From Maribellus maritimus (GTDB lineage Bacteria > Bacteroidota > Bacteroidia > Bacteroidales > Prolixibacteraceae), in the NCBI RefSeq assembly GCF_022267315.1, contig NZ_JAIKLE010000014.1, forward strand, positions 1-64,000: a stretch of DNA of 64,000 bases, written 5' to 3'. Below are positions 428-63,487 of the stretch, one piece after another. Below the pieces are notes generated by a model. The model was given only the letters and a program-made list of their open reading frames with translations. It was not told the DNA's origin and did not search any database. Position numbers and translations under genes: made by a program. Position 1 is the stretch's first letter, and each line of letters starts with the position of its first letter.

Positions 428-480
428 AAGAGAAGCATCCTTTTTGTATTTGAATCTAAACAACTAAAATCAAATCAATA

Positions 481-2493
481 ATGAAAGTAAAATTATATTG
501 GTATAATCTGGTTCTTGGACTATTTCTGATTTTTTCAGTTTCTTGCTCTAATCAGTCTGAATTTTTTATTTCTCCCGAGGGGAGCGACTTGTATTCCGGG
601 ACAGAAGCAAAGCCGTTTAAAAGTTTGAAAAGGGCACAGGAAGCCGTTCGCATTCAATTAAAAGAAAATCCGGGGAAACAAATTATTATTACCGTTAGAG
701 GCGGAAATTATTCAGTAAAAGAGCCGATAATGTTTACTGCCGAAGATTCGGGAACGGAGGACGCTCCGGTAATATACAAAGCAGCAGATGGAGAAGAACC
801 TGTTTTTACCGGAAGTGTGCAGCTTAAAAAATGGAAACCCCTGGATAATGTTAAAAAGTTGAAAATGTTTTCTCCCGAAATTCAAGTCCGCTTATTTGTT
901 ACCGATTTAATATTGGAAGGGGTGACGGATTTTGGAGATCCCATAAAAATTGGGAAACGGCCGGAATTGTTTTGCAACGGTAAAATTCAAACACTGGCGC
1001 GCTGGCCCAATACGGGTTTTGTAAAAGCCGGAGTGGCCAGAGGAAAAACCGAATTGCCTCCGCACTACATCAAAAATCACGGAAGCAAGGAAGGTGTTTT
1101 TGAATATCTTGGAGACCGGCAAGACCAGTGGGCGGAAGAAAATGACGTGCGACTTGGTGGTTACTGGTTTTGGGACTGGAGTGACGAATTCCAAACAGTA
1201 GATAAGGTTGACGTAGAATCCCATACTTTTTATCTGAAAGAACCTTTTCATCGTTATGGTTATGGTGACAGTCTTCGTTATTTTGGGTTGAATTTATTTT
1301 GTGAAATCGACCAGCCGGGCGAGTGGTATCTCGACAGGCTGGATAACCATTTGTATTGGTGTATGCCTGAAGGTGTTGATCCTAAAAAGGATGAAGTGAC
1401 ACTTTCTGTGTTTAATGCGCCTTATATGGTTGAAATTCGGGATTGTTCAAATTTAAAACTTCAGGGACTGACTTTCCGCGAGGGAAGGGGAAGTGCAATT
1501 TTAGTAAGCGAAGGCAAAAATTGTTTGATTGCTGATTGCCGCGTGGAACGTTTCGGCCAGGACGGAATTCATATCGATGGAGGTTCTAACGATGGAATTT
1601 CCGGTTGCTATTTAAGTACTTTCGGATGTGCCGGAATTAGCATCAAAGGCGGCGATAGGAAAACACTTACTCCTGCCAATCATTTTGTTGAAAATACCAT
1701 TGTCAGCGATTTTTCATTGTTTCATAGAACCTACGAACCGGCGGTTTATGTGGCCGGTTGTGGCATCTCTCTCAGACATAATTGTTTTCAAAATTCATCT
1801 TCATCAGCGATGCGTTTAGAGGGAAATGATATAACCGTTGAGTACAATGAAATCAGTCATGTTGTAAACGAGTCGGATGATCAGGGAGGACTTGATATGT
1901 GGTATAATCCGTCTTACCGTGGAACTGTTGTGCAGTACAATTACTGGCACGACATTAAAGGGGGCACTGTTCACGGTGCTGCCGGTGTTCGTCTCGATGA
2001 TATGATTTCAGGTGTGAAAATTTATGGAAACGTTTTTGAACGCTGCGGTGCACGGCATTTCGGAGGTGTGCAAATTCATGGAGGAAAAGACAATCTGGTC
2101 GAAAACAATCTTTTTTATAATTGTCTGGCTGCTGTTAGCCTTTCTCCCTGGAAAGGAAACCGGTGGGCCGAAGGTTTGGAATCTCCGGTAATCCAAAAGA
2201 AAATGTATAACGATGTGGATATTCGTTCTGAATTGTATCAGCAAAAATACCCTGAATTAAAATCGATTCGGGAGAATCCCAATCAAAATACAATTAAAAA
2301 TAATCTTGTCGTTGATTGCGAGCAGGTGTTGTTAAAAGACGGAGGATTTAATATTGTTGAAAATAATACGGCAATAAATTCAGAAGGAAAATCAGCCACG
2401 GAATTTTGCAAAGCGGATATTTTGAAAGAATATGGATTAGAACCGATTCCTTTTAGCGAGATTGGCCTAAAGAACAATAAGTGGATAAATTGA
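481..2493 (+). CDS. Lipoprotein with right-handed parallel beta-helix (GH141-like candidate)
   Basis: A lipoprotein signal ends at Cys22 (lipobox around SVSC), predicting anchoring to a membrane, probably the outer one. Mature sequence starts with an FFISPEGSD / GT-x-A-KPF-x-SL-x-x-A segment typical of secreted right-handed beta-helix proteins. From about residue 310 to 560 there are successive short turns rich in N, G and I/V (NxxI, GxxI, ENN), the pattern of stacked beta-helix coils. Length (670 residues) and N-terminus resemble GH141 enzymes (fucosidase/xylanase family used in pectin breakdown) and polysaccharide-lyase-like proteins. I cannot place catalytic residues, so activity is inferred from fold and neighbours. 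Start codon follows an A-rich leader. Confidence 0.72.
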   Translation: MKVKLYWYNLVLGLFLIFSVSCSNQSEFFISPEGSDLYSGTEAKPFKSLKRAQEAVRIQLKENPGKQIIITVRGGNYSVKEPIMFTAEDSGTEDAPVIYKAADGEEPVFTGSVQLKKWKPLDNVKKLKMFSPEIQVRLFVTDLILEGVTDFGDPIKIGKRPELFCNGKIQTLARWPNTGFVKAGVARGKTELPPHYIKNHGSKEGVFEYLGDRQDQWAEENDVRLGGYWFWDWSDEFQTVDKVDVESHTFYLKEPFHRYGYGDSLRYFGLNLFCEIDQPGEWYLDRLDNHLYWCMPEGVDPKKDEVTLSVFNAPYMVEIRDCSNLKLQGLTFREGRGSAILVSEGKNCLIADCRVERFGQDGIHIDGGSNDGISGCYLSTFGCAGISIKGGDRKTLTPANHFVENTIVSDFSLFHRTYEPAVYVAGCGISLRHNCFQNSSSSAMRLEGNDITVEYNEISHVVNESDDQGGLDMWYNPSYRGTVVQYNYWHDIKGGTVHGAAGVRLDDMISGVKIYGNVFERCGARHFGGVQIHGGKDNLVENNLFYNCLAAVSLSPWKGNRWAEGLESPVIQKKMYNDVDIRSELYQQKYPELKSIRENPNQNTIKNNLVVDCEQVLLKDGGFNIVENNTAINSEGKSATEFCKADILKEYGLEPIPFSEIGLKNNKWIN

Positions 2494-2521
2494 GAAATTT
2501 TCACGAACAAATTGATTTTAT

Positions 2522-4009
2522 ATGAAAGATATTTCAAAAAGATGTCTCAGACTCGCAGGATTCGGTTTTATATTTATAACTGTTCTTCTTTTTACAAACG
2601 CTTTTGTGTGTAAGGCTCAATCTGTAATTCGAATTGATGCCAGGAGGGAGCTTTTTGTTGATTCGCTTTTGATTGAGAAACTAAATAATGCAACTCTAAA
2701 ATTAAATCATCCGCGAAATGAAGGACAGGTGTTTAATTTTGATAAACCATGGGAAGGAAATTTTAGCGCATATTGTACCATTCTGAAAGATGGCGATTTG
2801 TTCCGGGCTTATTACCGGGGATTGCGGGAAGCTGGTAATGATGGAAAAGATGCTGAAGTAACGTGTTACGCTGAATCACGCGATGGTATTATCTGGGAAA
2901 AATCAAATCTGCACCTTTATGAGATGAAAGGAACCATGGACAACAATGTAATTCTGGCGCATGCTGCTCCCGTAACACATAATTTCAGCCCGTTTATTGA
3001 TTCTAATCCAAATGTAAAACCAGAACAGAAATACAAAGCGCTGGGAGGAACAAAAAAAAACGGATTAATAGCCTATGTTTCAGCAGATGGAATTCACTGG
3101 ATAAAATTGCAGGAAGAGCCGGTTTTTACCAAAGGACTTTTTGACTCACAAAACGTAGCTTTCTGGTCAGAATCAGAACAAAAATATGTCTGCTATTTCC
3201 GTATTTGGTCGGGCGAAGGTTATAAGGGATTTCGAAGTGTCGGGCGAACCACTTCTGACGATTTTATCCACTGGACAGAGCCCGAGGCAATGACTTTCGG
3301 AGATACGCCAATGGAGCATTTATACACGCAGCAGACCAGTCCGTATTACCGTGCGCCGCATATTTATTTGGCAATCGGTGCACGTTTTATGCCCAACAGG
3401 CAGGTGCTAACCGAGGAGCAGGCACTTGCCCTGGAAGTTAACCCGGATTATTTTAAAGATTGTTCCGACGCTTTTTTTATGACCAGTCGAGGCGGGAATA
3501 AATACGACCGCACATTTATGGAATCGTTTATCCGTCCGGGAATTGGTTTGCAGAATTGGGTTTCACGATCCAATTATCCGGCGTTGAATGTGGTGCAAAC
3601 CAGCCCAACAGAAATCTCGGTTTATGTAAACGAAAATTATGCACAACCGACTGCTTTTTTGAATCGTTATTCTTTGCGTATTGATGGATTTGTTTCGCTT
3701 GCTGCAGGGTATGGTGGAGGTGAATTGCAAACAAAACCTTTTATTTTTCAAGGAAAGGAATTGGAAATTAATTATTCCACTTCGGCAGCGGGAGGAATTA
3801 AAATAGAAATTCAGAATGAAGATGGAGAGCCTGTTCCTGGTTTTACAATAAATGATTGCCAGGAAATAATTGGCAACGAGATTAGCAGAATTGTGACCTG
3901 GAATGGAAAAACTGATGTTGGAAGTCTTGCCGGAAAGCCGGTACGTTTGTATATTTATTTAAAAGATGCTGATTTGTTTTCTTTTAAATTCACTAGCAAG
4001 GAAAATTAG
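2522..4009 (+). CDS. Secreted five-bladed beta-propeller hydrolase-like protein (GH32/43/68 fold)
   Basis: A 495-residue exported protein with an N-terminal hydrophobic segment at about residues 11-32. The body has repeated blade-like units: DGDLFRAYYRG, YAESRDGIIWEKS, YVSADGIHWIKL, YVCYFRIW and DDFIHWTEP. The S-x-DG-x-x-W motifs recur at blade ends as in GH32/GH43-type five-bladed propellers. The last ~110 residues look like a beta-sandwich, with an aromatic- and glycine-rich stretch. No diagnostic WxNDPNG or catalytic triad was recognised, so the exact GH family is open. It lies 28 nt after the beta-helix gene and 6 nt before the deacetylase, which argues for co-transcription. Confidence 0.65.
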   Translation: MKDISKRCLRLAGFGFIFITVLLFTNAFVCKAQSVIRIDARRELFVDSLLIEKLNNATLKLNHPRNEGQVFNFDKPWEGNFSAYCTILKDGDLFRAYYRGLREAGNDGKDAEVTCYAESRDGIIWEKSNLHLYEMKGTMDNNVILAHAAPVTHNFSPFIDSNPNVKPEQKYKALGGTKKNGLIAYVSADGIHWIKLQEEPVFTKGLFDSQNVAFWSESEQKYVCYFRIWSGEGYKGFRSVGRTTSDDFIHWTEPEAMTFGDTPMEHLYTQQTSPYYRAPHIYLAIGARFMPNRQVLTEEQALALEVNPDYFKDCSDAFFMTSRGGNKYDRTFMESFIRPGIGLQNWVSRSNYPALNVVQTSPTEISVYVNENYAQPTAFLNRYSLRIDGFVSLAAGYGGGELQTKPFIFQGKELEINYSTSAAGGIKIEIQNEDGEPVPGFTINDCQEIIGNEISRIVTWNGKTDVGSLAGKPVRLYIYLKDADLFSFKFTSKEN

Positions 4010-15595: not shown

Positions 15596-15621
15596 AATTA
15601 TAGAATAGTTTTGGGTAAGGA

Positions 15622-15655
15622 AAAAATCTCTTCGGGCATTGCTCTGGAGATTTTT
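15622..15655 (+). terminator. Rho-independent terminator after the GH92 gene
   Basis: Nine-base inverted repeat AAAAATCTC / GAGATTTTT (15622-15630 with 15647-15655), with the T-tract running out of the right arm. It lies 27 nt downstream of the GH92 stop. Confidence 0.6.
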
Positions 15656-15788
15656 ATATTGAGAGAGGAATCAAAATTGATAAAGGTACTTTTCAAAGAT
15701 TCTTAGTTTATTATAATCCGTAATTTTATAACTTACCTCCGAATTTATTCTTCAGTTGAAATCCTATTTCCAACTAAATAAAAAAACA

Positions 15789-18485
15789 ATGAAAAACACT
15801 TTACTTCTTTTAATATTTATTAGCATTTTTTCTCTGAATAATCATGTTCAAGCTGATGTCACTGTTACCAATTTGAAATGTGAATACCTGGTCAATCCCA
15901 TAGGATTGGACACAAAAAGTCCGCGGCTCTCCTGGCAAATTATTTCTGAAAAAACAGGTATTGAACAACAAGCCTATAAAATAATTGTAGGAACCGATTC
16001 TAAAAAAATAGTTGCAGGCGAAGGTGATTCCTGGGATTCGGGAATCATTGAATCTTCAACAATTCCGGCGGTCTATCAGGGAGAAGAGCTTCAACCTTTT
16101 ACTGGCTATTTCTGGAAAGTAAAAGTTCAGTTGCAGGATGGAAGCTGGTCCGATTATTCTGAAATCGCCAGTTTTGAAACAGGTATGATGGGACAGCACA
16201 ACTGGAAAGGAGCCTGGATTTCGGATAGCCATGATTTTAATATAAAACCAGCGCCTTATTTCCGCAAAGAATTTAGTTTGGGCAAAAAGATAAAATCAGC
16301 GCGTGCATATATTGCAGTGGGTGGTCTATATGAACTATATCTGAACGGAGAAAAAGTTGGGAATCATCGTCTCGATCCGATGTATACCCGTTTTGATCGC
16401 CGCACACTTTATGTAACTTACGATGTGACTGAGAATTTGACCAACGGTGAAAATGCAGTGGGTGTTATTTTGGGAAACGGCTGGTACAACCATCAATCTA
16501 CTGCGGTTTGGTATTTTGAAAAAGCACCGTGGCGTGCCCGTCCGAAATTTTGTATGGATTTGCGCATAACATATGCAGATGATTCCGAAGAAATAGTTTC
16601 CACAAACAGCGATTGGAAAACTTCGCTTTCGCCGGTGATTTTTAACAGTATTTATACTGCTGAACATTACGATGCGCGACTGGAACAAACCGGTTGGAAC
16701 AAACCCGGATTTGACGACAAAAAATGGGACGGTTCGATGTTAACTAACGCTCCGTCAAAAAATATCGTTGCCCAGGTAATGCACCCCATTCGGAATGTGA
16801 CTGAAATTCCTGCTCAAAAAGTAACAAAGTTTAGCGATACCAATTACGTGGTAGATTTTGGCCGGAATATGGCCGGTGTAACGAAATTGAAAATAAAAGG
16901 AGCGGAAGGAACAACTGTTCGTTTAAAACACGGCGAACGTTTATATGAAGATGGTCATGTGGATATGTCAAATATCGATGTGCATTACCGCCCAACAAAT
17001 GATTCAGATCCATTTCAAACCGACATCGTAATTCTTAGTGGAAAGGACGATGTTTTTATGCCCAAATTTAATTACAAAGGCTTCCAGTATGTAGAAATAA
17101 CTTCTGATAAGCCCATTAAATTTTCAGAAGAAAATCTGATAGCTTATTTTATGCATAGCGATGTTCCTCCGGTAGGGGAAATAAATTCTTCCAACGATGT
17201 GCTGAATAAAACCTGGAAAGCAGCAAATTCTTCGTATTTGTCCAATTTATTTGGTTATCCAACTGACTGCCCGCAGCGTGAAAAAAATGGCTGGACGGGC
17301 GATGCACAAATCAATATTGAAACCGGATTGTATAATTTCGAAGCAATTACGATTTATGAAAAATGGATGGCCGACCACCGCGATGAACAACAACCCAACG
17401 GTGTACTACCTGCAATTGTTCCTACCGATGGCTGGGGTTATACTTGGGCAAACGGACCTGATTGGACAAGTACCATTGCCATTATTCCGTGGAATGTGTA
17501 TCTGTTTTACGGCGACAAAAAGATTCTGGCAGACTGCTATGAAAATATCAAGTTGTATGTCGACCATATTGATGAATTGTACCCAAGTGGAGTTACGGAC
17601 TGGGGCCTTGGCGACTGGGTTCCGGTAAAATCGGAAGCGCCAAAGGAATTTACATCCACGGCCTATTATTTTGTTGATGCGACTATTCTCGCAAAAGTAG
17701 CCGCCATTTTAGGAAAAGGTGTAGATGCAGAGAAATATTTTGCGCTGGCCGAAAAAATCAAAAGTGCATTAAATAAAAAATATCTGAATCGGGAAACCGG
17801 TATTTATGGCGATGGCTTGCAAACCGAATTGAGTTTTCCGTTGCAGTGGAATTTTGTTCCTGATGACATGCGTGAAAAAGTTGCAGCAAATCTGGCAAAA
17901 CGGGTGGAAGCCGACGACAATCACATTGATGTAGGTTTGTTGGGAACAAAAGCCATTTTAAATGCCATGAGCGAAAATGGTTATGCTGATTTGGCCTACA
18001 AAGTAGCATCGCAGGAAACTTTTCCTTCGTGGGGATGGTGGATTGTAAACGGCGCTACTACGTTTTACGAAAACTGGCCGCTAGATGCTTCGCGCGATAT
18101 TTCGATGAATCACATTATGTTTGGCGAAATTGATGCCTGGTACTACAAAGCACTTGGCGGCATTTTCCCCGATGAAAAGAATCCTGGGTTTAAAAATGTT
18201 ATTTTGAAACCCAGTTTTGTTGAAGACCTCGACCATTTTACGGCAAAACATAAAAGTCCTTACGGTGAAATTGTTTCCTCGTGGAAGAAATCGGGAAAAA
18301 CAGTTACTTACAATGTTGTTGTTCCCGCCAATAGTACCGCAACCGTATACTTGGATGGGAAAAATGTAAAAGAAAGTGGTAAAGATATTTTGACAAATCC
18401 AACCATTCAGGTGGTTCAAAAGAATGAGAATAAAACCGTCCTGCAACTGGCATCGGGTTCTTATTCTTTTACTATTAAATGGTAA
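15789..18485 (+). CDS. GH78 alpha-L-rhamnosidase, secreted
   Basis: The ATG at 15789 starts a signal peptide (MKNTLLLLIFISIFS); the longer in-frame start lacks one. Domains in order: N-terminal beta-sandwich, rhamnosidase concanavalin-like domain (GGLYELYLNGEKVG), then the (alpha/alpha)6 barrel, which opens at DCPQREKNGWTGDAQ with E498. The barrel ends near a YENWPLDASRD segment (E761), followed by the C-terminal beta domain. Enzymes of this family release alpha-L-rhamnose by inversion. With two GH106 genes it makes three rhamnosidases in 18 kb. It is preceded by the GH92 terminator and 130 nt of AT-rich DNA, so it probably has its own promoter. Confidence 0.93.
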   Translation: MKNTLLLLIFISIFSLNNHVQADVTVTNLKCEYLVNPIGLDTKSPRLSWQIISEKTGIEQQAYKIIVGTDSKKIVAGEGDSWDSGIIESSTIPAVYQGEELQPFTGYFWKVKVQLQDGSWSDYSEIASFETGMMGQHNWKGAWISDSHDFNIKPAPYFRKEFSLGKKIKSARAYIAVGGLYELYLNGEKVGNHRLDPMYTRFDRRTLYVTYDVTENLTNGENAVGVILGNGWYNHQSTAVWYFEKAPWRARPKFCMDLRITYADDSEEIVSTNSDWKTSLSPVIFNSIYTAEHYDARLEQTGWNKPGFDDKKWDGSMLTNAPSKNIVAQVMHPIRNVTEIPAQKVTKFSDTNYVVDFGRNMAGVTKLKIKGAEGTTVRLKHGERLYEDGHVDMSNIDVHYRPTNDSDPFQTDIVILSGKDDVFMPKFNYKGFQYVEITSDKPIKFSEENLIAYFMHSDVPPVGEINSSNDVLNKTWKAANSSYLSNLFGYPTDCPQREKNGWTGDAQINIETGLYNFEAITIYEKWMADHRDEQQPNGVLPAIVPTDGWGYTWANGPDWTSTIAIIPWNVYLFYGDKKILADCYENIKLYVDHIDELYPSGVTDWGLGDWVPVKSEAPKEFTSTAYYFVDATILAKVAAILGKGVDAEKYFALAEKIKSALNKKYLNRETGIYGDGLQTELSFPLQWNFVPDDMREKVAANLAKRVEADDNHIDVGLLGTKAILNAMSENGYADLAYKVASQETFPSWGWWIVNGATTFYENWPLDASRDISMNHIMFGEIDAWYYKALGGIFPDEKNPGFKNVILKPSFVEDLDHFTAKHKSPYGEIVSSWKKSGKTVTYNVVVPANSTATVYLDGKNVKESGKDILTNPTIQVVQKNENKTVLQLASGSYSFTIKW

Positions 18486-54271: not shown

Positions 54272-54331
54272 TTTTGGCTAAAACGATCATAGATTTGGCT
54301 ACATTGTTTTTTTTGTTTCTGCAGAACTTTG
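54272..54331 (+). promoter_or_regulatory. Operator-promoter 1: 21-bp-spaced direct repeats plus -7-like box
   Basis: Direct repeats TTTTGGCTAAAAC (54272-54284) and ATTTGGCTACATT (54293-54305) start 21 bp apart. After 18 nt comes GAACTTTG (54324-54331), a variant of the TAnnTTTG box, then 20 nt to the ATG of the NmrA-like gene. Two direct half-sites two helical turns apart are the known layout of AraC-family activator sites such as araI1-I2. The same geometry recurs at 58716 and 61945. Confidence 0.7.
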
Positions 54332-54351
54332 TTGAAACAAAAGATTAAAAC

Positions 54352-55254
54352 ATGAAAATAGTAGTAACAGGTTCATTGGGCCACATTAGCAAACCACTCA
54401 CACAGGAATTGGTACAAAAAGGACACTCGGTTACAGTTATAAGTCGTAAAGCCGAAAGAACAAAAGCCATCGAAACATTAGGCGCACAAGCGGCTATTGG
54501 CACCATGGAAGACGTTGGGTTTCTGACAACAGCTTTCAACGGTGCCGATGTAGTTTATGTGATGGAAGCACTTGCCTATGGCAGTTTTTTTGATAAAAAT
54601 CTAGACGTCATTGAAGCAAACACTCAAATGGGGCTCAATTACAAACAGGCAATTGATCAATCAGGTGTTAAACAAGTGGTTCATCTTAGCAGTATTGGTG
54701 CTCACACTAATAAAGGCACTGGCATTCTCAAGTTTCATTATAACGTAGAAAATATCTTGAAAGAACTACCAGACAATGTCGCTATTAAATTTATGCGGCC
54801 AGTAGGTTTTTACTACAACATGTATCAATATATACAAAGTATAAAAATGCAAGGGGCAATTATACAAAACTATGGCGGGGATGAAAAAGAGCCTTGGGTT
54901 TCGCCTTTGGATATTGCTGCCGTTATTGCTGAGGAAATTGAACTTCCTTTTGAAGGCAGAAAAATTCGTTACATCGCCAGCGATGAAGTTTCGCCAAATG
55001 AGATAGCAGGAACCTTGGGTGAAGCAATTGGGAAACCTGATTTAAAGTGGTTTGTAATATCTGATGAACAAATGCTAAACAGTATGATTGCCTCGGGAAT
55101 GAACCCGCAAACCGCCAACGGCTTTGTGGAGATGAATGCTGCCAGGCGTGGACGAGTTTTATACGAAGATTATTATAAAAACAGACCTGTATTGGGGAAA
55201 GTAAAATTAACTGATTTTGCAAAAGAATTTGCAAGTGTATTTAACCAGGAATAA
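54352..55254 (+). CDS. NmrA-like NAD(P)-binding protein (atypical SDR)
   Basis: N-terminal Rossmann motif MKIVVTGSLGHISKPL (variant of GxxGxxG), then VISRKAERTKAIE, GADVVYVMEA, and VVHLSSIGAHTNKG replacing the classical YxxxK. 300 residues with an NmrA/NAD(P)H-binding C-terminus (YEDYYKNRPVLG). Relatives are NAD(P)H:quinone-oxidoreductase-like or redox-sensing proteins. First gene of the unit NmrA - SDR - AraC driven by operator-promoter 1. Confidence 0.85.
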   Translation: MKIVVTGSLGHISKPLTQELVQKGHSVTVISRKAERTKAIETLGAQAAIGTMEDVGFLTTAFNGADVVYVMEALAYGSFFDKNLDVIEANTQMGLNYKQAIDQSGVKQVVHLSSIGAHTNKGTGILKFHYNVENILKELPDNVAIKFMRPVGFYYNMYQYIQSIKMQGAIIQNYGGDEKEPWVSPLDIAAVIAEEIELPFEGRKIRYIASDEVSPNEIAGTLGEAIGKPDLKWFVISDEQMLNSMIASGMNPQTANGFVEMNAARRGRVLYEDYYKNRPVLGKVKLTDFAKEFASVFNQE

Positions 55255-55275
55255 TACAAAAGAAAGGTGCATAAA

Positions 55276-56193
55276 ATGAATATAGAAAATATTGTAATGA
55301 CCGGAGGAACTTCAGGATTTGGTCTGGTAACGGCAAAAAAATTGATTCAGGCAAACAACGTGAATTTAATTATGGGATACAGAAGTAAAGGTGTTAAAGA
55401 TGCCGTGAACTTACCGCTCGAACTTACCAGTTTGCGCAGTGTAAACTCTTTTGCAGAAGAAGTTGTAAAGAGGTTGGGGAAAGATAAAATTGATGCACTT
55501 ATATTCAATGCCGGAATAAATTATCCCAGTATTAATACCTTAACTGAGGATGGAATAGAAATCAATTTCGGCGTGAATCACCTGGCACATTTTTACCTGC
55601 TTCGTTTGCTTATGCCTCATTTATCGGGTAACGCCAAAATAATAATCACAACCAGCGGAACAATCGATCCGGCTACAAATATCTTCGGGTCTCCTCCAAA
55701 ACATGCGAATGCGCTCTGGATGGCTTATCCGGAAATGGATGAAACGCTTGAAGAGGATGACAAAATAAACGGACAACGTGCTTACGCTTCATCCAAACTC
55801 TGTAATCTTTTAACTGCAATACAAATCAAAGAATTACCGGAATCCAAACAAAACAATTGGGAAGGAATAGCTTACGACCCCGGTGTAACGCCGGGGACAG
55901 GATTAGTCCGCTATTCAGATGAAGCAATGAAAATGCTTTCTCAACAATTCACCGACCCAAAAACGAGAAAAGAAAAATTCCCTTTAGCAAACAGCATTGA
56001 AGATGCAGGAAATACATTGGCTGACATAGCATTGGGCTTCATCGAACCTCCTCAAGATAGATATGTTGCTCTCCGTGGAGGTAAAATTACTTTTATGAAT
56101 CCTCCGGGATTGGCTCAGAATAACGAAACAATAAAAAAAGTATGGCAGGATACAGCGTTCATTTTGAACGATAAATTAGGTTTAACCTGTTAA
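55276..56193 (+). CDS. Short-chain dehydrogenase/reductase
   Basis: ATG 55276 preferred over an in-frame GTG at 55267; AGAAAGG lies 8 nt upstream. Cofactor motif TGGTSGFG, then FNAGIN (NAG motif), ITTSGT (Ser) and a YASSK catalytic Tyr/Lys pair in GQRAYASSKLCNLL. The C-terminus ends RGGKITFMNPPGL. 305 residues, in the protochlorophyllide-reductase-like SDR group. Second gene of the first module, 21 nt after the NmrA gene. Confidence 0.88.
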   Translation: MNIENIVMTGGTSGFGLVTAKKLIQANNVNLIMGYRSKGVKDAVNLPLELTSLRSVNSFAEEVVKRLGKDKIDALIFNAGINYPSINTLTEDGIEINFGVNHLAHFYLLRLLMPHLSGNAKIIITTSGTIDPATNIFGSPPKHANALWMAYPEMDETLEEDDKINGQRAYASSKLCNLLTAIQIKELPESKQNNWEGIAYDPGVTPGTGLVRYSDEAMKMLSQQFTDPKTRKEKFPLANSIEDAGNTLADIALGFIEPPQDRYVALRGGKITFMNPPGLAQNNETIKKVWQDTAFILNDKLGLTC

Positions 56194-56268
56194 TCTTAAA
56201 CAATTCATAGTCATTATTGTGTAATAAGTAACGCTAAAAAGATGCTATAAAAACAAATGGATTGAAAC

Positions 56269-57189
56269 ATGACAAATGAATATCCAAAACGAATCAGAAC
56301 AATAACAGAATTTCATCAGTTCAGGAATTTACCAAAACCGGAACATCCTTTGGTTAGCGTGGTCGATTACAGGGATATAAAACACTCTTCCGAAGAAAAC
56401 CGTGTAAGCTGGGTCCTCGACTTTTATTCAATTTCGCTAAAAAGAACTTCAAATGCCAAAATGAGATACGGTCAGCAGGAATATGATTTTGATGAAGGCA
56501 TAATGTTCTTTATGGCTCCCGGCCAGGTGTTTAGTGTTGAAGTGGAAAAAAACACCATCCAAAAACATACCGGGTGGATATTGCTTGTTCACCCTGATTT
56601 TCTGTGGAATACACCATTAGCCCAAACCATCAGGCTGTACGAATTCTTTGGTTATTCGGTAAACGAAGCGTTGTTTCTTTCCGATAAAGAAGAATCGATA
56701 GTCACCGGAATTATGAAAAATATCCAGCAGGAATATCATTCCAATATCGATAAATTCAGTCAGGATATAATCATTGCTCAAATTGAAACACTGCTCAATT
56801 ATTCAGAACGATTTTATCATCGGCAGTTTATTACGCGCAAAATCACCAATCATAAAACGTTAAGTGAGCTGGAAGAAATTCTCACCGAATATTTCAATAG
56901 CGATGATTTGGTTGTGAAAGGATTACCAACTGTCCATCAAATTGCAGAAGCATTAAACATATCGCCCAATTATTTAAGCGGATTACTTAAAACGTTGACC
57001 GGGCAAAGCACACAGCAACATATTCACGAGAAACTGATTGAAAAAGCCAAGGAAAAGCTATCCACCACTAATTTGTCCGTCAGTGAAATTGCCTACGAAC
57101 TGGGCTTTGAGCATCCGCAGTCATTCAGTAAACTATTCAAGACAAAAACGAATGTTTCGCCCCTGGAGTTTCGAAAGTCATTTAATTAA
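56269..57189 (+). CDS. AraC-family regulator (copy 1)
   Basis: Cupin-like N-terminal sensor (YDFDEGIMFFMAPGQVF, GWILLVHPDF) and a two-HTH AraC domain. HTH1 is VHQIAEALNISPNYLSGLLKTLTG; HTH2 plus tail runs from the IHEKLIEKAKEKLS helix to FEHPQSFSKLFKTKTNV and SPLEFRKSFN. It is paralogous to the AraC gene at 59596. The last ~55 residues are almost identical and 40 nt near the 3' end (57134-57173) are identical, while the sensor half is only about half identical. Probable regulator of the 21-bp direct-repeat promoters. Confidence 0.93.
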   Translation: MTNEYPKRIRTITEFHQFRNLPKPEHPLVSVVDYRDIKHSSEENRVSWVLDFYSISLKRTSNAKMRYGQQEYDFDEGIMFFMAPGQVFSVEVEKNTIQKHTGWILLVHPDFLWNTPLAQTIRLYEFFGYSVNEALFLSDKEESIVTGIMKNIQQEYHSNIDKFSQDIIIAQIETLLNYSERFYHRQFITRKITNHKTLSELEEILTEYFNSDDLVVKGLPTVHQIAEALNISPNYLSGLLKTLTGQSTQQHIHEKLIEKAKEKLSTTNLSVSEIAYELGFEHPQSFSKLFKTKTNVSPLEFRKSFN

Positions 57190-57272
57190 AACACGTTTTT
57201 CGGAGCACATTAATACATCGAAAATATTTGGCAGAATGTTATATCTGTATCATGCGGCACAACTATTTGAAA

Positions 57273-57632
57273 TCACTTTTCCTCTTTATATGCAATTTCC
57301 TTTCGATGCTTTAATCCCCAATCTGCCAGATTATCAATAATTGGAAGTAATTTTTGACTATATTCGGTCAATTCATATTTTACCGTAATGGGCCGGGTGT
57401 CTTTTATTGTTCTGCTCACAAGCAGGTTCATTTCCATTTCTTTCAGTTCCCTGCTCAACATCTTCCCTGAAATACCCTCAATATCTTCCAGTAAATCAGA
57501 ATACCGTTTTTCTCCAAAATAGAGAGCCGCTATAATATGCATCTTCCACTTCCCCCCTAAAACATACATCGTGTCTGCTATAGCCATTATTTTATGCCTA
57601 CAGGTTTTAATATCTTCCTTACTGCTTTCCAT
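57273..57632 (-). CDS. HxlR-type winged-helix regulator
   Basis: 119 residues with the HxlR signature: DTMYVLGGKWKMHIIAALYFGEKRYSDL, ISGKMLSRELKEMEMNLLV and TVKYELTEYSQKLLPII. It sits between AraC copy 1 and the nitroreductase and is divergent from the latter. HxlR proteins sense electrophiles or redox state, often through an early cysteine; Cys11 here (KTCRHKI) is in the expected place. A palindrome between the two divergent genes is its likely operator. Confidence 0.9.
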   Translation of the reverse strand: MESSKEDIKTCRHKIMAIADTMYVLGGKWKMHIIAALYFGEKRYSDLLEDIEGISGKMLSRELKEMEMNLLVSRTIKDTRPITVKYELTEYSQKLLPIIDNLADWGLKHRKEIAYKEEK

Positions 57633-57664
57633 AGAATGTTACTTTGTTACCTTAATGAAACTGT

Positions 57665-57713
57665 TACTTTTTGTCACTTGATGACAAAAGTAAATTAAAT
57701 CTATTTAAGTTTG
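57665..57713 (+). promoter_or_regulatory. HxlR operator and nitroreductase promoter
   Basis: The inverted repeat TACTTTTTGTCA (57665-57676) / TGACAAAAGTA (57682-57692) has a one-base bulge and a 5-nt spacer. The -7 match TAAGTTTG follows at 57706-57713, 27 nt before the nitroreductase ATG. The 12 bases GTTACTTTGTTA upstream partly repeat the left arm. Confidence 0.65.
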
Positions 57714-57740
57714 CACATAATAACACAAAAAAATAAGAAC

Positions 57741-58370
57741 ATGGATTTAATTAATGTACTCAATTGGCGATATGCTGTAAAGAAGTTTAACAAGGAAAAA
57801 GTTTCTGAAAAAAATGTTTCCCAGATTATAAGTGCTATATCGCTTTCAGCTTCTTCAACAGGCATTCAACCCTACAGAATTTTCGTAATTAGCAACAAGG
57901 ATATCAGACAGGAATTGGCTAAAGAATCCTTTAACCCGCAAATTACTGAAGCTTCTCATCTTCTTGCTTTTGCTGCCTTTGATTCTGTAACAAAAGAAAG
58001 GATAGCAAATTTAATTCAACTTATGGCCAGTGAAAGAGGTATTCCCGAAGATAATCTGGAAGATTACAAAAACACTCTTGAGTTTCATCTTTTGGGCAGA
58101 ACCAATGAAGAGAATTTTATCTGGTCATCCAAACAAGCCTACATTGCCCTTGGAACAGGATTAATAGCTGCCGCTAACTTAAAAGTAGATGCAACACCAA
58201 TGGAGGGGTTTAATACTGAAAAATTAGACGATTTGTTAAATTTAAAAGAGCAAGGACTGAGAAGTGTTTTGCTCATGGCATTGGGATATCGTGATGCCGA
58301 AAAAGATTTTTTGGCAAACCAGAAAAAAGTTAGGTTGCCCATTAGTGACTTGGTAGTTGAAATAGGATAA
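57741..58370 (+). CDS. Nitroreductase-family flavoprotein
   Basis: ATG 57741 starts MDLINVLNWRYAVKKFN, the nitroreductase R(R/Y)(S/A)-x-(R/K) FMN-phosphate motif. Later elements: SSTGIQPYR, WSSKQAYIALGTGLIAAANL and MEGFNTEKLDDLL, ending LPISDLVVEIG. 209 residues, NfsB/oxygen-insensitive group. Reduces nitro compounds or quinones with NAD(P)H. Divergent from the HxlR gene, a common redox-stress pair. A terminator follows. Confidence 0.92.
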   Translation: MDLINVLNWRYAVKKFNKEKVSEKNVSQIISAISLSASSTGIQPYRIFVISNKDIRQELAKESFNPQITEASHLLAFAAFDSVTKERIANLIQLMASERGIPEDNLEDYKNTLEFHLLGRTNEENFIWSSKQAYIALGTGLIAAANLKVDATPMEGFNTEKLDDLLNLKEQGLRSVLLMALGYRDAEKDFLANQKKVRLPISDLVVEIG

Positions 58371-58487
58371 ATAATCATTCCCATCAAATTACACCTTGAT
58401 TTTTTCAATAGTAATAATTTCAACATAATCTCAAAAGCATGTAAGTAAAAGCTCGAAATCTTTCCATTGGAATCACAAAATAGTATC

Positions 58488-58524
58488 AACTCCGCATTCA
58501 AAAAGAGATTGTGGAGTTTTTTTA
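58488..58524 (+). terminator. Terminator of the nitroreductase gene
   Basis: A 9-bp stem AACTCCGCA / TGTGGAGTT (58488-58496 with 58510-58518, one G-T pair) ends in seven T. Confidence 0.78.
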
Positions 58525-58598
58525 CTCCCCTCCCGGAGCGTTAAACATTACAGAACCTTGCTGAAACAAAAACACGAAAAGGTAAAAATGGAGACAAC

Positions 58599-58658
58599 AA
58601 ATTATTCAAGACAAAAACCAGATTTTAACCATTGGAATTCAGGCAGTCGTTTAATTAG
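58599..58658 (+). pseudogene. Decayed AraC 3' tail (scar 1)
   Basis: Read in frame from 58599 the DNA encodes KLFKTKT, a short divergent stretch with an internal stop, then PLEFRQSFN and a stop codon. This matches the C-terminus of the AraC protein at 59596 almost exactly, and the first 20 nt are identical to 60451-60470. No helix-turn-helix upstream remains. The segment just upstream (58553-58590) resembles the leader of the NmrA gene (GAAC(C/T)TTG(C/T)TGAAACAAAA). The body between leader and tail appears deleted. Confidence 0.75.
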
Positions 58659-58715
58659 AAAAGAGACTGACTCCCTGCAAACTACACTTAAATATAAAAA
58701 AACTATACTTCGAAA

Positions 58716-58775
58716 ATTTGGATACAATTTCCCGACTTTTGGATACTTAAGTGAGGTTTTCATAAACGAACTTTG
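58716..58775 (+). promoter_or_regulatory. Operator-promoter 2: 21-bp-spaced direct repeats plus -7-like box
   Basis: Direct repeats ATTTGGATACAAT (58716-58728) and TTTTGGATACTTA (58737-58749), identical over TTTGGATAC and 21 bp apart. After 18 nt comes GAACTTTG (58768-58775), then 16 nt to the SDR ATG. Geometry equals operator-promoter 1. The half-site core is TTTGGATAC instead of TTTGGCTA, which could reflect the different first HTH of the local AraC copy 2. Confidence 0.72.
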
Positions 58776-58791
58776 TATAAAAAATTGAAAA

Positions 58792-59592
58792 ATGAAAACG
58801 ACACTAATTACAGGGGCATCAAGCGGAATTGGTGAAGCTTTTGCAAAACGATTAGCAAAAGAGAAACACAACTTATTACTCGTTGCACGGTCTGAAATCA
58901 AACTGAAATCATTATGTCAGTCACTCAGCAATCAAAATGGGATTGACGCGCAGTATATTACTGTTGATTTGGCTAAGAAGGACTGCTATAAATTGATAGC
59001 GGATGAAGTCAAAAAGAGAAATCTGGAAGTGAACTGGTTAATTAATAATGCCGGTATCGGTTCTGGTGGTGATATTTTGGAATACAGTCTGGAAGATTAC
59101 CAAAACATGATGCACCTAAATATGGATGCAATGGTAGCTCTCACTTACACTTTTTTACCTCAAATGCGGGCTGCCAAAAACGGAACAATTATCAACGTCA
59201 GTTCTATGGCTGGTTTTGGGGCTATTCCATATATGAACATTTATGCCGCCACAAAAGGATTTGTAAAATATTTTACTGAAGCACTTTGGGAAGAAAACAG
59301 GCTATATAATATCCAAACCATGCTACTCTGTCCTGGAGCAACAGAAACAGGCTTCTTCGATGCAGCAAAAATTGGAAATGAACGGAAAAGCAGTTTTTCA
59401 ACCAAAAATCTGGAAACTCCTGATGCGGTAGTTGAATCTGCGATGAAAGGCCTTCGAAAAAAGTCAATGGTTACAATAAGTGGCTTTCAGAACAAAATAG
59501 CCCGAAGATTGCTTTTTATTGTACCAACCAAGTTTGGATTAAAAATGTGGGGTAACCAAATGCGCAAAAATCTCAAACTGGAAATTAAGTAG
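58792..59592 (+). CDS. Short-chain dehydrogenase/reductase
   Basis: Classical SDR: TGASSGIG cofactor loop, NNAGIG, VSSMAG (Ser) and YAATK (catalytic Tyr/Lys). 266 residues, similar to DltE/YqjQ-type SDRs with a C-terminal hydrophobic segment (RRLLFIVPTKFGLKMW). Directly downstream of operator-promoter 2 and 3 nt before AraC copy 2, so the two form one operon. Confidence 0.92.
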   Translation: MKTTLITGASSGIGEAFAKRLAKEKHNLLLVARSEIKLKSLCQSLSNQNGIDAQYITVDLAKKDCYKLIADEVKKRNLEVNWLINNAGIGSGGDILEYSLEDYQNMMHLNMDAMVALTYTFLPQMRAAKNGTIINVSSMAGFGAIPYMNIYAATKGFVKYFTEALWEENRLYNIQTMLLCPGATETGFFDAAKIGNERKSSFSTKNLETPDAVVESAMKGLRKKSMVTISGFQNKIARRLLFIVPTKFGLKMWGNQMRKNLKLEIK

Positions 59593-59595
59593 CTT

Positions 59596-60510
59596 ATGCA
59601 TCGTAACGAAATCTTACATGTCAAAAACATATCACAGTATTATGATATTAGTGGTTTAGGCAAACCCAGGCATCCGCTGGTAGCTATCTATTCGTTCTCT
59701 GAGATTCCAAAAATTGATATTCAGGAGCCTATTCGATTTACACTTGGTTTGTATGTGGTAACTATCAAACGCGAATGTAACTTCAAATCGCAGTATGGCC
59801 AGACCAGTTATGATTATGATGAGGGGGTTATGGGTTTTACTGCGCCAAATCAAGTTTTTAAGGCTGATGAAGATTTCTATTTCCCTGAACAAGGTTGGTG
59901 CCTGATCTTTCATCCTGATTTTTTGCTTAACTACGAGCTCGCACGAAAAATCAGACAGTATCATTTTTTCGATTATGCGGTAAGCGAAGCACTTATTTTA
60001 TCGGAAGATGAAGAACGGGATATTGTAGATTTGTTTCAAAAAATAAAACAGGAAATAGACCGACCCATTGATAAATTTAGTCAGGACGTACTTATCGCGC
60101 AGTTAGATTTATTGCTTACTTATAGCAACCGTTTTTACAACCGTCAGTTTATAACCAGAAAACCGTTGAACAATCACTTACTTTCGAGGTTTGAAAATCT
60201 TTTGGAAGCTTTCTTCTCAGAGGAAAATCGACATTTGGAAGGTTTACCTACTGTAAGTTATTTTGCTAGTAAATTAAATATTTCAAGCAAATACTTCAGC
60301 GATATGCTCAAGCAACTCACAGGACTCACAGCCCAACAACACATTCATGAAAAACTGATTGAAAAAGCTAAGGAAAAATTATCTGCAACCAATCTGTCTG
60401 TAAGCGAAATTGCCTACGAACTAGGCTTTGAGCATCCGCAGTCGTTCAGTAAATTATTCAAGACAAAAACGAATGTTTCGCCCCTGGAGTTTCGGCAATC
60501 TTTTAACTAA
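59596..60510 (+). CDS. AraC-family regulator (copy 2)
   Basis: Paralogue of copy 1. The cupin-like sensor (YDYDEGVMGFTAPNQVF, GWCLIFHPDF) has about half its residues in common with copy 1. HTH1 differs (VSYFASKLNISSKYFSDMLKQLTG) but HTH2 and the tail are nearly identical. 304 residues. It starts 3 nt after the SDR stop, so it is probably co-transcribed and autoregulated through operator-promoter 2 (inference). Its 3' end is shared with two scars nearby. Confidence 0.93.
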   Translation: MHRNEILHVKNISQYYDISGLGKPRHPLVAIYSFSEIPKIDIQEPIRFTLGLYVVTIKRECNFKSQYGQTSYDYDEGVMGFTAPNQVFKADEDFYFPEQGWCLIFHPDFLLNYELARKIRQYHFFDYAVSEALILSEDEERDIVDLFQKIKQEIDRPIDKFSQDVLIAQLDLLLTYSNRFYNRQFITRKPLNNHLLSRFENLLEAFFSEENRHLEGLPTVSYFASKLNISSKYFSDMLKQLTGLTAQQHIHEKLIEKAKEKLSATNLSVSEIAYELGFEHPQSFSKLFKTKTNVSPLEFRQSFN

Positions 60511-60651
60511 GCTAATTTAAACCACTTTCCTGCAACTATATTAGAATAAGAAACAAAAGAATAAGATCCCAATCACGGAATGATGAATGAACAGTTCAAT
60601 TTCGATTGTACTTAATCAAAACATTCACCAAATCCACTTGTTAATAACCCC

Positions 60652-61890
60652 ATGAATGAAAAACAATCTCCAGAATTTTATAAAACAGGAAAAGGAAGAG
60701 TTAAAATAATACTAATACTTGGTATACTCACCGCTTACGTGCCTTTTTCAATTGACACCTATTTACCTGCAATGACTCACATTGCAGATTATTTCGGTAC
60801 AACGTCGGCAAAAATGACGTTCTCGCTTACGACATTTTTTATTGGATTTGCAACGGGACAAATTTTGTACGGCCCGTTACTCGATTTGTATGGCCGAAAA
60901 ACACCCCTGTACATTGGGTTAGTAATAAGTATCCTTGCAAGTGTTGCGTGTATTTTTGCATGGGATGCAGGCTCATTTATCATCTTCCGTTTTATTCAGG
61001 CACTTGGTGCTTCGGTAGCTTCTGTTTCGGCATTGGCTATGGTGCGCGATTTTTTCCCACCGGAAGAAAGTTCCGGAATTTTTTCGATGCTTGTTTTGGT
61101 TATCGGCAGTTCACCGCTTATTGCTCCAACTCTTGGCGGTTATATCACGGCACACATTGGTTGGCCATGGATTTTCGTGTTCCTTTCGTTAATGGCAGTG
61201 GCTCTTATAAACCTCGTCTTTTTTGTCCTTCCGGTAAATTATTTTCCCGATAAAAACTCAAAACTAAAAATAGCTGTTTTAGTAAAAGATTACTGGGCGA
61301 TACTGAGTAACCCACAATTTATTACCTATGCATTGGCCGGAGCTTTTTCGTTTGCATCGCTGTTTATATACGTTGCCGGATCACCGATTATTTTTATGGA
61401 AAAATACCATATGACAGCACAAAATTTTGGTGTTGTCTTCGCCATGCTTTCGGTTGGTTTCATCGGCGGCAGTCAATTAAATATTCTGGCTTTAAAAAAA
61501 TTCAAAAGTCAGCAAATATTCCAATTTGCTTTGTTGTGCCAAATGTCAATCGCAATGGTCTTTTTTATTGGCATCTTAAATAATTGGTATGGGAGAAACA
61601 CTATCATCGTATTTTTATTCCTGATTTTGTTGTGTTTGGGATTTACGTCACCCAATGGCATTGCTCTTGCACTTTCGCCTATTCAAAAGAACCTGGGAAG
61701 TGCATCGGCTCTGGTCGGAACTATTCGAATTGGAATTGCAGGGCTAACTTCGGGAGGTATTGGTTTGCTAAATGTTTCAGATGGCATCCCAGTAGCAGGA
61801 ATGATGCTTGTCACTGCACTTATCTCTTTTTCTATTTTGGTCATCAATAGAAAACGTATTAGCCTTTTTTCGTTGGTAAAACAAAACTAA
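60652..61890 (+). CDS. Bcr/CflA-family MFS drug exporter
   Basis: Twelve hydrophobic helices. The start has LTAYVPFSIDTYLPAMTHIADYF and the Bcr/CflA loop motif GPLLDLYGRKTPLYIG; MFS motif C-like GSSPLIAPTLGGYI is in helix 5. 412 residues. Exports chloramphenicol-, bicyclomycin- or other small toxic compounds by proton antiport. It has no 21-bp repeat operator of its own and ends one base before a decayed AraC tail, so it seems to have been placed in front of a scar. Confidence 0.92.
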   Translation: MNEKQSPEFYKTGKGRVKIILILGILTAYVPFSIDTYLPAMTHIADYFGTTSAKMTFSLTTFFIGFATGQILYGPLLDLYGRKTPLYIGLVISILASVACIFAWDAGSFIIFRFIQALGASVASVSALAMVRDFFPPEESSGIFSMLVLVIGSSPLIAPTLGGYITAHIGWPWIFVFLSLMAVALINLVFFVLPVNYFPDKNSKLKIAVLVKDYWAILSNPQFITYALAGAFSFASLFIYVAGSPIIFMEKYHMTAQNFGVVFAMLSVGFIGGSQLNILALKKFKSQQIFQFALLCQMSIAMVFFIGILNNWYGRNTIIVFLFLILLCLGFTSPNGIALALSPIQKNLGSASALVGTIRIGIAGLTSGGIGLLNVSDGIPVAGMMLVTALISFSILVINRKRISLFSLVKQN

Positions 61891-61891
61891 C

Positions 61892-61927
61892 CTTTCGCCC
61901 TTGAAATTTACACAATCGTTCAACTGA
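61892..61927 (+). pseudogene. Decayed AraC 3' tail (scar 2)
   Basis: In frame from 61892 the DNA encodes LSPLKFTQSFN followed by TGA, matching the AraC C-terminus (V)SPLEFRQSFN with conservative changes; about 28 of 38 nucleotides match copy 2. It begins one base after the MFS stop and ends 17 nt before operator-promoter 3. No other AraC sequence is present. Confidence 0.7.
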
Positions 61928-61944
61928 CAGAACAAAATTCATTA

Positions 61945-62004
61945 TTTCGGCTAAAACAAAAGTTGTTTCGACTAAAACTGTTTTCTGACTGTGATATAGC
62001 TTTA
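61945..62004 (+). promoter_or_regulatory. Operator-promoter 3: 21-bp-spaced direct repeats plus -7-like box
   Basis: Direct repeats TTTCGGCTAAAAC (61945-61957) and TTTCGACTAAAAC (61966-61978), differing at one base, 21 bp apart. After 18 nt comes TAGCTTTA (61997-62004), one mismatch from TAnnTTTG, then 25 nt to the ATG of the SRPBCC pseudogene. Confidence 0.72.
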
Positions 62005-62029
62005 TTGAGAAAGTCAAAAATAAGAAGAT

Positions 62030-62457
62030 ATGAGCACCACTTATAAAAGAGTTTAGTTACAACGTGCCAATTGAGAACGTTTGGCAGGCTTTAACGGTTA
62101 AGGATAAAATGAGGAAATGGTATTTCCCTCAACTTCAAAAATTTGAACCGGAAGTCGGGTTTAAATTTCAATTTGAGGACGATGGTGCCGGGTACCTAAA
62201 AGAATGGGTTATGACCAAAGTGGTTAAGGGCAGAATGCTGGCGCATAGCTGGGCCTATAAAGGCTATCCGGGGAGCTCAGAGGTTACATTTGATTTGTTT
62301 TCAGAAGAGGGTAAAACCAGGTTAAGGGGTGACTCAAACAGATTTGGAAAGTTTTCCTGACCATCTTCATTTCAAAAGAGAGCGATTTGAATGGGGGTGG
62401 GACAATCTTCTTGGACAAAATTTGAAACACCTTCTCGAAAACAGCAATCATTCCTGA
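62030..62457 (+). pseudogene. SRPBCC (AHSA1-like) protein with two +1 frameshifts
   Basis: The three frames join into one AHSA1-type protein: MSTTYK, then (after one extra A in the run at 62045-62048) EFSYNVPIENVWQAL, WYFPQLQKFEPEVGF and SWAYKGYPGSSEVTFDLF. After one extra G in GGGG near 62327 it continues VTQTDLESFPDHLHFKRERF, EWGWDNLLGQNLKHLLENS and a TGA. Typical AHSA1 proteins have the same order and length (~140). Both changes add one base to a four-base homopolymer, so decay and sequencing error are both possible. Confidence 0.8.
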
Positions 62458-62538
62458 TTTAAAAAAACGCCTGATACCTGAGCTTCTCAACAATACAATA
62501 TTGGGCTTTTTAACAAAGTGGAGTATATTTTTTATGCT

Positions 62539-62546
62539 GAACTTTG
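62539..62546 (+). promoter_or_regulatory. -7-like GAACTTTG box without direct repeats
   Basis: GAACTTTG as in operator-promoters 1 and 2, 26 nt before the SDR ATG. No 21-bp repeats are found at the expected position upstream. Confidence 0.35.
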
Positions 62547-62572
62547 TAGTATAAAATTAAAAACAAAGGAAA

Positions 62573-63430
62573 ATGGAAAAAACAATTTTTATTACAGGAA
62601 CAAGCTCAGGTTTTGGCAAACTCACTGCCATTACATTATCAAAAGCAGGTCATACAGTAATTGCGGGAATGCGTGGCACAACAAATAAAAACAAAGCCGT
62701 AGCAGAAGAACTAAACATACTTCCTAATGTGGAAGTCGCAGAAATTGATGTTACAGATAATATTTCTGTTTCCAATGTATTTAAGCAAACATTAGAAAAA
62801 TATAAAAAAATAGATGTGCTGATCAATAATGCAGGAGTATCTGGTTATGGACTTGTAGAAGCCTACTCTATTGAACAAATTAGAAAGATATTCGAAGTAA
62901 ATTTCTATGGCATTATTCGTACCTATCAAGCCGTATTGCCTTCAATGCGACAAGCTAAAAGCGGTTTAATCATAAATATCACTTCGGGTGCAAGCGGACA
63001 TTCTTTGCCATTTATGGGAGTTTATTTAGCATCTAAATTTGGAGTAGAAGCGATTTCTGAAGCGATTCAGGATGAATTAGAACAATTCAATATCGAAAAC
63101 GTAACCATACAACCCGGGGTATACCCCACGAAGATGAACAGCGGTGAAAAAACTGGTCTAAATGCTGACAAGCTGGAAATTGCACAAGCTTATGATCCTA
63201 TTGCAACAGAAATGTTTAATACCATAGGTGCAGGATTATTTGGTAAAATGGAACAATTCAAAATGAATCCTCAAACCGTGGCAGACGGAATATTGGAACT
63301 TGTAAATATGAAAGATGGCAGTCGTCCACTACGCTTTCCTTTAGACGCAATAGCGCAAGGAACAGATAAAGAATTTATTAAAAACAGGGCGGATATAAAA
63401 GCCAAATGGTTAGCTACTTATCTCAAATAA
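62573..63430 (+). CDS. Short-chain dehydrogenase/reductase
   Basis: Classical SDR: TGTSSGFG, DVTDN (Asp of the adenine pocket), NNAGVSGYG, ITSGASG (Ser) and YLASK (Tyr/Lys). The tail GVYPTKMNSG is typical of the NAD(P)-dependent SDR group with a 285-residue length. AAAGGAAAATGG at the start includes a good RBS. It follows the SRPBCC pseudogene and precedes the epimerase by 57 nt, so the latter may be co-transcribed. Confidence 0.92.
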   Translation: MEKTIFITGTSSGFGKLTAITLSKAGHTVIAGMRGTTNKNKAVAEELNILPNVEVAEIDVTDNISVSNVFKQTLEKYKKIDVLINNAGVSGYGLVEAYSIEQIRKIFEVNFYGIIRTYQAVLPSMRQAKSGLIINITSGASGHSLPFMGVYLASKFGVEAISEAIQDELEQFNIENVTIQPGVYPTKMNSGEKTGLNADKLEIAQAYDPIATEMFNTIGAGLFGKMEQFKMNPQTVADGILELVNMKDGSRPLRFPLDAIAQGTDKEFIKNRADIKAKWLATYLK

Positions 63431-63487
63431 AGTAACAAAAGCTGAATTATCTATTTAGTTTGACTATTGTTTTTATATACATTGACA

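Follow-up and report, generated by a model that had tools for sequence, protein, structure and literature searches.

Three promoters in a stretch of 64,000 nt from Maribellus maritimus (contig NZ_JAIKLE010000014.1, positions 1-64,000, assembly GCF_022267315.1; hereafter the window) share an operator made up of two direct repeats at a fixed distance from a -7-like box. This three-site operator is very probably a real and widespread control site. We hold with considerable confidence that each site serves as operator and promoter for a one-component activator of the AraC family, a dimer of which would occupy both half-sites beside the promoter and activate its own reductase-araC operon. A preliminary description of this DNA had taken the sites for a small undescribed regulon of reductases; the operator recurs across the Bacteroidota and is not confined to the genome in which it was noticed.

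All three sites lie on the forward strand. Site 1 (TTTTGGCTA-N12-ATTTGGCTA, 54272..54301) is upstream of NmrA-SDR1-araC1, where SDR denotes a short-chain dehydrogenase, site 2 (ATTTGGATA-N12-TTTTGGATA, 58716..58745) is upstream of SDR2-araC2, and site 3 (TTTCGGCTA-N12-TTTCGACTA, 61945..61974) precedes a broken AHSA1/SRPBCC gene. The half-sites, of the type TTTyGrmTA, start at 54272/54293, 58716/58737 and 61945/61966, in each case 21 bp apart, exactly as first described. The gap of 18 nt then reported between the second repeat and the octamer is indeed constant and holds if the repeat is taken as 13 bp; the core common to the half-sites is only 9 bp, however, and from the end of the second core the gap is 22 nt at all three sites. 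The octamer is GAACTTTG at promoters 1 (54324..54331) and 2 (58768..58775) and TAGCTTTA at promoter 3 (61997..62004), on the same strand, with ATG 20, 16 and 25 nt downstream, respectively. These match in part the flavobacterial -7 box, given as TAnnTTTG at -12 to -5 in a passage of PMC9723704. Octamer 3 ends in A; in the alignment of relatives, 3 of 79 sites likewise have A instead of G as the last base.

Could such an arrangement arise by coincidence in AT-rich intergenic DNA? A pattern allowing at most one mismatch per pair, with TTT at the octamer, finds three sites on the forward strand of the window, none on the reverse strand and none in 60 first-order Markov resamples, although this comparison is circular, the pattern having been derived from the three sites themselves. 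The short pattern of the preliminary description was also fitted to them, and the whole-genome search proposed there yields no excess: at up to three mismatches it gives 501/500 hits, against 562/543 for the reversed pattern. A similar short pattern is not enriched over its reversed control in 37 genomes of the genus, where the full motif, judged by eye, is found only at the site 1 matches of this genome and of a congener (G031), and at site 3 of this genome; site 1 is identical in G031. Because these loose, fitted patterns are not enriched in genome or genus, an independent test was needed. A matrix trained on 71 sites of other genomes, with the window sites left out, ranks precisely these three above every other position on either strand of the 64 kb (42.5 bits for site 1, 36.0 for site 3 and 16.1 for site 2; the next position scores 8.1), which bears out the earlier claim that the repeated distances exceed chance. 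Moreover, a strict form of the operator pattern occurs at 41 places in 28 of 392 Bacteroidota genomes of at least 90% completeness, and its reversed form at none. On this evidence, the probability of coincidence is close to negligible.

The spacing and the promoter box are both retained in relatives. Loci were fetched with the AraC1 protein aligned to seven relatives, and the best 80 of 592 confirmed loci were kept; their AraC proteins are 61-76% identical in the best segment, and they come from Chryseobacterium, Flavobacterium, Pedobacter, Mucilaginibacter, Chitinophaga, Dyadobacter and others. On the araC strand, TTTYGRCTA pairs with at most one mismatch, counted at spacings from 12 to 34, occur 19 times at 21 and never at any other spacing, so that the check on paired repeats in relatives suggested at the outset came out clearly in favor of the operator. 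The opposite strand has five single matches, one of them at spacing 21. For TTTYGRMTA pairs with two mismatches, 64 are found at spacing 21 versus 2 to 23 at other spacings. Both the spacing scan and the matrix thus give direct half-sites with the period of about 21 of AraC/XylS operators. Pairs chosen by pattern only, with no regard to a promoter, are followed by TTTG at a single offset of 26 nt, that of the window, in 19 of 19 cases under the strictest pattern and in 27 of 28 and 54 of 64 under the looser ones. The same offset is seen in 81 of 93 matrix matches, this matrix having been built from sites selected with their -7 columns.

Aligned on the relatives, the matrix places 79 of the 80 loci above its low threshold and has as its consensus an A-rich leader, TTT[TC]G[GA]CTACAACAA, 5 variable bases, GATTTGGCTACATC, 18 variable bases and [CG]AACTTTGTA. 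The computed arrangement is TTTyGrCTACAACAA-N5-GATTTGGCTACATC-N18-sAACTTTGTA, in which the distances are kept and flank and spacer vary among relatives. Under 5-fold cross-validation, with the opposite strand and reversed sequence as controls, 75 of 80 loci exceed the 95th control percentile on the operator columns and 78 when the -7 columns are included, with 47 and 51, respectively, exceeding the highest control value. Among the control values for the operator columns, the maximum (31.0) comes from the opposite strand of locus L190, at a position in front of an SDR-like gene, and the control is therefore probably conservative.

The pattern of conservation also bears on whether the likeness of the three sites reflects descent from a recent duplication of one cassette, rather than function. 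Recombination has occurred here: remnants of araC 3' ends, detected by tblastn with AraC2, lie on the forward strand just upstream of site 2 (58596..58655; 80% identity over 20 codons, E 1.2e-4, containing a stop) and site 3 (61883..61924; 79% over 14 codons, E 0.03 with the whole protein and 3.8e-5 in a tail search), and the tails of araC1 and araC2 look converted. Over its final 30 codons, araC1 shares 91% DNA identity with araC2 versus 81% with the G031 orthologue, which, set beside 36-63% identity between the paralogues up to about residue 257, suggests that gene conversion has homogenized their second helix-turn-helix (HTH). The 10-bp flank of site 3 is, in addition, 50-60% identical to those of the other two sites. 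Recent duplication would nevertheless be expected to leave more than the elements of the operator alike, and among the three sites the spacer is 22-39% identical as against 60-90% for the -7 region. The arrangement is kept between genera in which flank and spacer have fallen to 30-36% identity, and mean identity between 71 loci, with sites chosen by score, is 67-74% in the half-sites and -7 box versus 30-39% in the flank, the spacer and bases 16-20. We therefore consider descent without function very improbable.

The 93 matrix matches fall in 77 of the 80 loci, 87 on the araC strand and 6 on the other, and lead to 85 distinct downstream genes with products of at least 200 aa, classed by best BLAST match. 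NAD(P) oxidoreductases account for 80 of these, with 48 NmrA-like, 20 SDR, 7 epimerase-like (our label), 4 zinc-type medium-chain dehydrogenase/reductase (MDR) and 1 other NAD(P)-binding protein; the remaining 5 comprise araC itself (2) and 3 others, including a TonB-dependent-receptor-type protein. The zinc MDR targets belong to Pfam families other than NmrA and SDR, and operator conservation is therefore not merely the history of one gene. The earlier view of a reductase regulon is thus upheld in relatives, but not at the third target in the window, which is broken and is not a reductase.

Which regulator reads the operator is indicated by co-occurrence across the 392 genomes. The operator is present in 27 of 39 genomes with an AraC at E<1e-90, in none of 48 with only a distant AraC and in 1 of 305 with neither (Fisher, 2.8e-31), the dividing E-value having been set after the list was inspected. 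The single exception (G305) resembles coding sequence, to judge by its letters only. Of the 39 places outside the M. maritimus genome, at least 32 are followed on the same strand by a close araC that lies no more than 3 kb, and typically about 1 kb, downstream. This arrangement would also be seen if the operator were read by another transcription factor encoded elsewhere, with araC merely one of its targets: araC is mostly downstream and in the same direction, co-occurrence alone cannot separate regulator from target, and for 7 of the 39 places no close araC was matched within 3 kb. Such a factor is improbable, however, given that the operator follows the close AraC clade and not distant AraCs, that direct repeats of period 21 are typical of AraC/XylS proteins, and that the target enzyme family varies while AraC and operator remain. 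The HTH also changes with the half-site. In a comparison of HTH and operator columns, from which the L183 row was omitted because its AraC frame is cut in the alignment, a second half-site of GGAA[AC] goes with Ala or Thr at residue 284 in 6 of 6 rows versus 0 of 71 others, which have Gln (69) or Pro (2). Residue 284 would be the second residue of the second recognition helix (283-294) in the structural model. Mutual information between HTH and operator columns was confounded by kinship and was not used beyond this residue.

The reading of the sites as operators of their neighboring AraC proteins has to be weighed against several points, to which the lack of enrichment of the short pattern belongs. 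Promoters 1 and 2 are without the leading TA of TAnnTTTG, and site 2 is the weakest of the three, third by the outside matrix. The operator columns fail to exceed the control percentile in 5 of the 80 loci, and the cross-validation is not fully independent, as close relatives are spread over different folds and a single matrix served to choose every training site; the spacing scan and the pattern-only TTTG counts are free of this weakness. A strict match is absent from 12 of the 39 genomes with a close AraC, in addition to the 7 unmatched places. The six AraCs with Ala or Thr at residue 284 form one clade with a single origin on the tree and so count as one event, their GGAA[AC] sites score toward the lower end of the alignments (10.9 to 41.1 bits), and the column statistics ignore kinship. 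Finally, it is the position of the sites only that points to activation rather than repression.

The proteins themselves have the architecture expected of AraC/XylS regulators. AraC1 (306 aa) and AraC2 (304 aa) both have PF12833 and PF00165 above cut-off, giving the two C-terminal HTH motifs of the family, which in the AraC1 model are formed by helices 222-229, 233-244, 271-277 and 283-294. HTH domains are the only Pfam domains found, with AraC_binding below cut-off in both proteins. An N-terminal effector/dimerization domain is nevertheless indicated for AraC1 by Foldseek matches to the regulatory domains of RhaR, AraC and BgaR. Its best Foldseek E-values (3e-8 to 1e-5) are to full-length CsvR, Rns and ToxT, with template modeling (TM) scores of 0.25-0.37 and a root-mean-square deviation of about 20, and the domain arrangement therefore differs. 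Single domains superpose better, with TM scores of 0.73 (by target) for the RhaR regulatory domain (5u93), 0.58 for that of AraC (2arc) and 0.74 for the AraC DNA-binding domain (2k9s), although identity to the RhaR and AraC regulatory domains is only 10-13%. The near-identical second HTH suggests that AraC1 and AraC2 read the same class of site.

By analogy with characterized members of the family, two AraC1 (or AraC2) monomers would sit on the same face of the DNA in head-to-tail orientation, offset by two turns of the helix. The preliminary description had proposed AraC-type direct half-sites beside the promoter, and the spacing in relatives, the TTTG offset and co-occurrence all lend support to this prediction. 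If the octamer lies at -12 to -5, the proximal half-site would fall at about -43 to -35 and adjoin the -33 region; with a constant 22 nt to the octamer, it may overlap the -33 element. The -33 columns are weakly conserved in the matrix of relatives, as expected for an activator-dependent promoter, and the bound dimer would touch RNA polymerase and so compensate for a weak -33 element. NmrA-SDR1-araC1 and SDR2-araC2 would thereby be switched on with positive autoregulation, and site 3 would formerly have driven the AHSA1 gene, now broken. Two of the three operons (54352-57189 and 58792-60510) include their own araC, and their control is therefore probably autoregulatory. From the NAD(P) oxidoreductase targets and the neighboring nitroreductase and efflux genes, our guess is that the inducer is a toxic small molecule, such as a carbonyl, a quinone or another xenobiotic.

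The first operon consists of an NmrA-family NAD(P)-binding oxidoreductase gene (54352..55254; PF05368, 5.8e-16), SDR1 (55267..56193; PF00106, 1.4e-12) and araC1 (56269..57189; PF12833, 4.6e-21), the proposed operator binder, whose model matches AraC-family structures. The second comprises SDR2 (58792..59592; PF00106, 8.4e-49) and araC2 (59596..60510), a paralogue 54% identical to araC1. A Bcr/CflA-type major facilitator superfamily (MFS) efflux transporter (60652..61890; TIGR00710, 5.3e-81) and the broken AHSA1/SRPBCC gene (62030..62360) follow, all on the forward strand. The last has an ATG at 62030 and a TAG after eight codons; the match is to a residual 98-aa frame with a GTG start (62064-62360; PF08327, 1.2e-14). 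Between the two operons lie a gene for an HxlR-type regulator (57273-57632, reverse strand) and a divergent nitroreductase gene (57741-58370, forward strand). This pair is absent here in G031 and is a separate, possibly redox-responsive system.

G031 is the congener with the closest AraC1 (90% identical), and 40 kb of its DNA were compared. Two long blocks of the window's surroundings match it with 93.5% and 96.4% DNA identity, and the MFS gene with 82%. At the corresponding position in G031, site 1 and NmrA-SDR1-araC1 are followed by the MFS gene, and about 57192-60615 and 61868-63486, that is, sites 2 and 3 with their genes, are missing. In M. maritimus, a long array of NAD(P)-oxidoreductase and AraC cassettes extends over 54352-63430 and on into positions 1-3323 of locus L009 (C55:64001-84000), comprising NmrA-SDR-araC1, SDR-araC2, SDR3, epimerase-like-AraC and SDR-AraC, differing in this from G031. 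A further intact araC, together with an araC-like stretch for which the list of open reading frames has no intact frame, occupies 15608-17173 of the G031 reverse complement (L101/L102), upstream of the block that matches the window from 50185 onwards. A second full-length AraC (at least 49% identity) falls within the fetched stretch in 13 of the 80 loci (L132, L147, L162, L164, L167, L168, L182, L186, L187, L190, L193, L197 and L205), and AraC arrays are thus common. Operator and araC may, we suggest tentatively, form a portable control cassette, the pair remaining constant while capturing NmrA, SDR, epimerase-like and zinc MDR oxidoreductases. Recombination at araC 3' ends would lengthen and shorten the arrays and also homogenize the second HTH, so that paralogues continue to read a single operator in common.

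A second class of operator occurs in the array, with half-sites like GcCTTTTnAACAAAG 23 bp apart and then 20 nt to a -7-like octamer. Such sites are found at 62481-62546 in the window (upstream of SDR3), at 1357-1422 of L009 (upstream of another SDR) and in G031 at C1:814069-814134 (upstream of an epimerase-like gene). This class adjoins two genes for AraC proteins of 269 and 274 aa that belong to another subfamily, and similar repeat pairs of 22-23 bp lie about 1.1-1.3 kb before AraC in 7 of 25 relatives inspected (L243, L247, L249, L253, L254, L261 and L263). The SDR3 promoter (62487) was considered as a fourth member of the main class and rejected, its score of 3.7 stemming, by eye, from the -7 box. 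Among the loose matches inspected in pattern scans of the M. maritimus genome, a part of the total, an operator-like TTTTGTCTA-N12-CTTTGGCTA stands isolated on the minus strand of contig C120 (1956-1985, locus L010), between genes that read as DJ-1/PfpI-like and methyltransferase-like in translation. It scores 19.4 bits on the operator, but 2.9 with the -7 columns and has no properly spaced -7 box, and was not counted.

In a paralogue clade with AraCs about 43% identical, 8 of 29 loci also have 21-bp repeat pairs in the 330 bp upstream of araC. Those of L080, L081, L083, L084, L095 and L096 are of a single type, GTAATnnnGGTAA, directed away from araC, and L014 has a GGGTAA-type pair. Spacing counts in this clade are 160 at 21, 96 at 22 and 56 at 20, inflated by overlapping windows and by a tandem repeat in L099. 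These figures are suggestive only, a hint that the spacing is kept while half-sites diverge by AraC clade.

What emerges is a sequence-defined regulon for a large clade of uncharacterized Bacteroidota AraC regulators (80 loci kept of 592 confirmed), with targets predicted, a promoter architecture open to testing and one residue as a candidate for specificity. Many neighboring pairs annotated as 'AraC family', 'NmrA' and 'SDR' would become assignable to one regulatory system, and the promoters could possibly serve as inducible promoters for Bacteroidota once the inducer is known. Literature searches, with most subscription papers outside their reach, found no title on such an AraC/NmrA regulon, and a text search for the letters TTTGGCTA was uninformative.

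The 21-bp geometry is already known, both for AraC/XylS regulators and, as a prediction, for the hybrid two-component systems (HTCS) of Bacteroides, as described in passages of PMC4514859 and PMC3878776. The former gives the sites of XylS as TGCA-N6-GGNTA-N6-TGCA-N6-GGNTA and of MekR as CACC-N5-CTTCAA-N6-CACC-N5-CTTCAA, and from the sites as printed we sum a half-site period of 21 for each. XylS at Pm, MekR and AraC at araI1/araI2 resemble the window sites in that two half-sites, head to tail and with a period of 21, lie next to the promoter. The half-site of XylS also ends in GGNTA, comparable to GGCTA or GGATA in the window. The window promoters differ in their Bacteroidota-type -7 box in place of -10/-35 elements, in the half-site itself and in their oxidoreductase targets. 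Closer in phylogeny are the HTCS, for which PMC3878776 describes predicted direct-repeat motifs spaced 21 bp on average, a spacing interpreted there as dimer binding two helix turns apart. They share with the present regulators the phylum, the AraC-type DNA-binding domain and the (predicted) 21-bp direct repeats. What appears to be new is a phylum-wide one-component AraC regulon in the Bacteroidota, its binding predicted from sequence. HTCS are sensor-kinase fusions acting on polysaccharide utilization genes, whereas AraC1 and AraC2 carry HTH Pfam domains alone, with no fused sensor, kinase or receiver, and AraC1 is a one-component protein of 306 aa encoded beside reductases.

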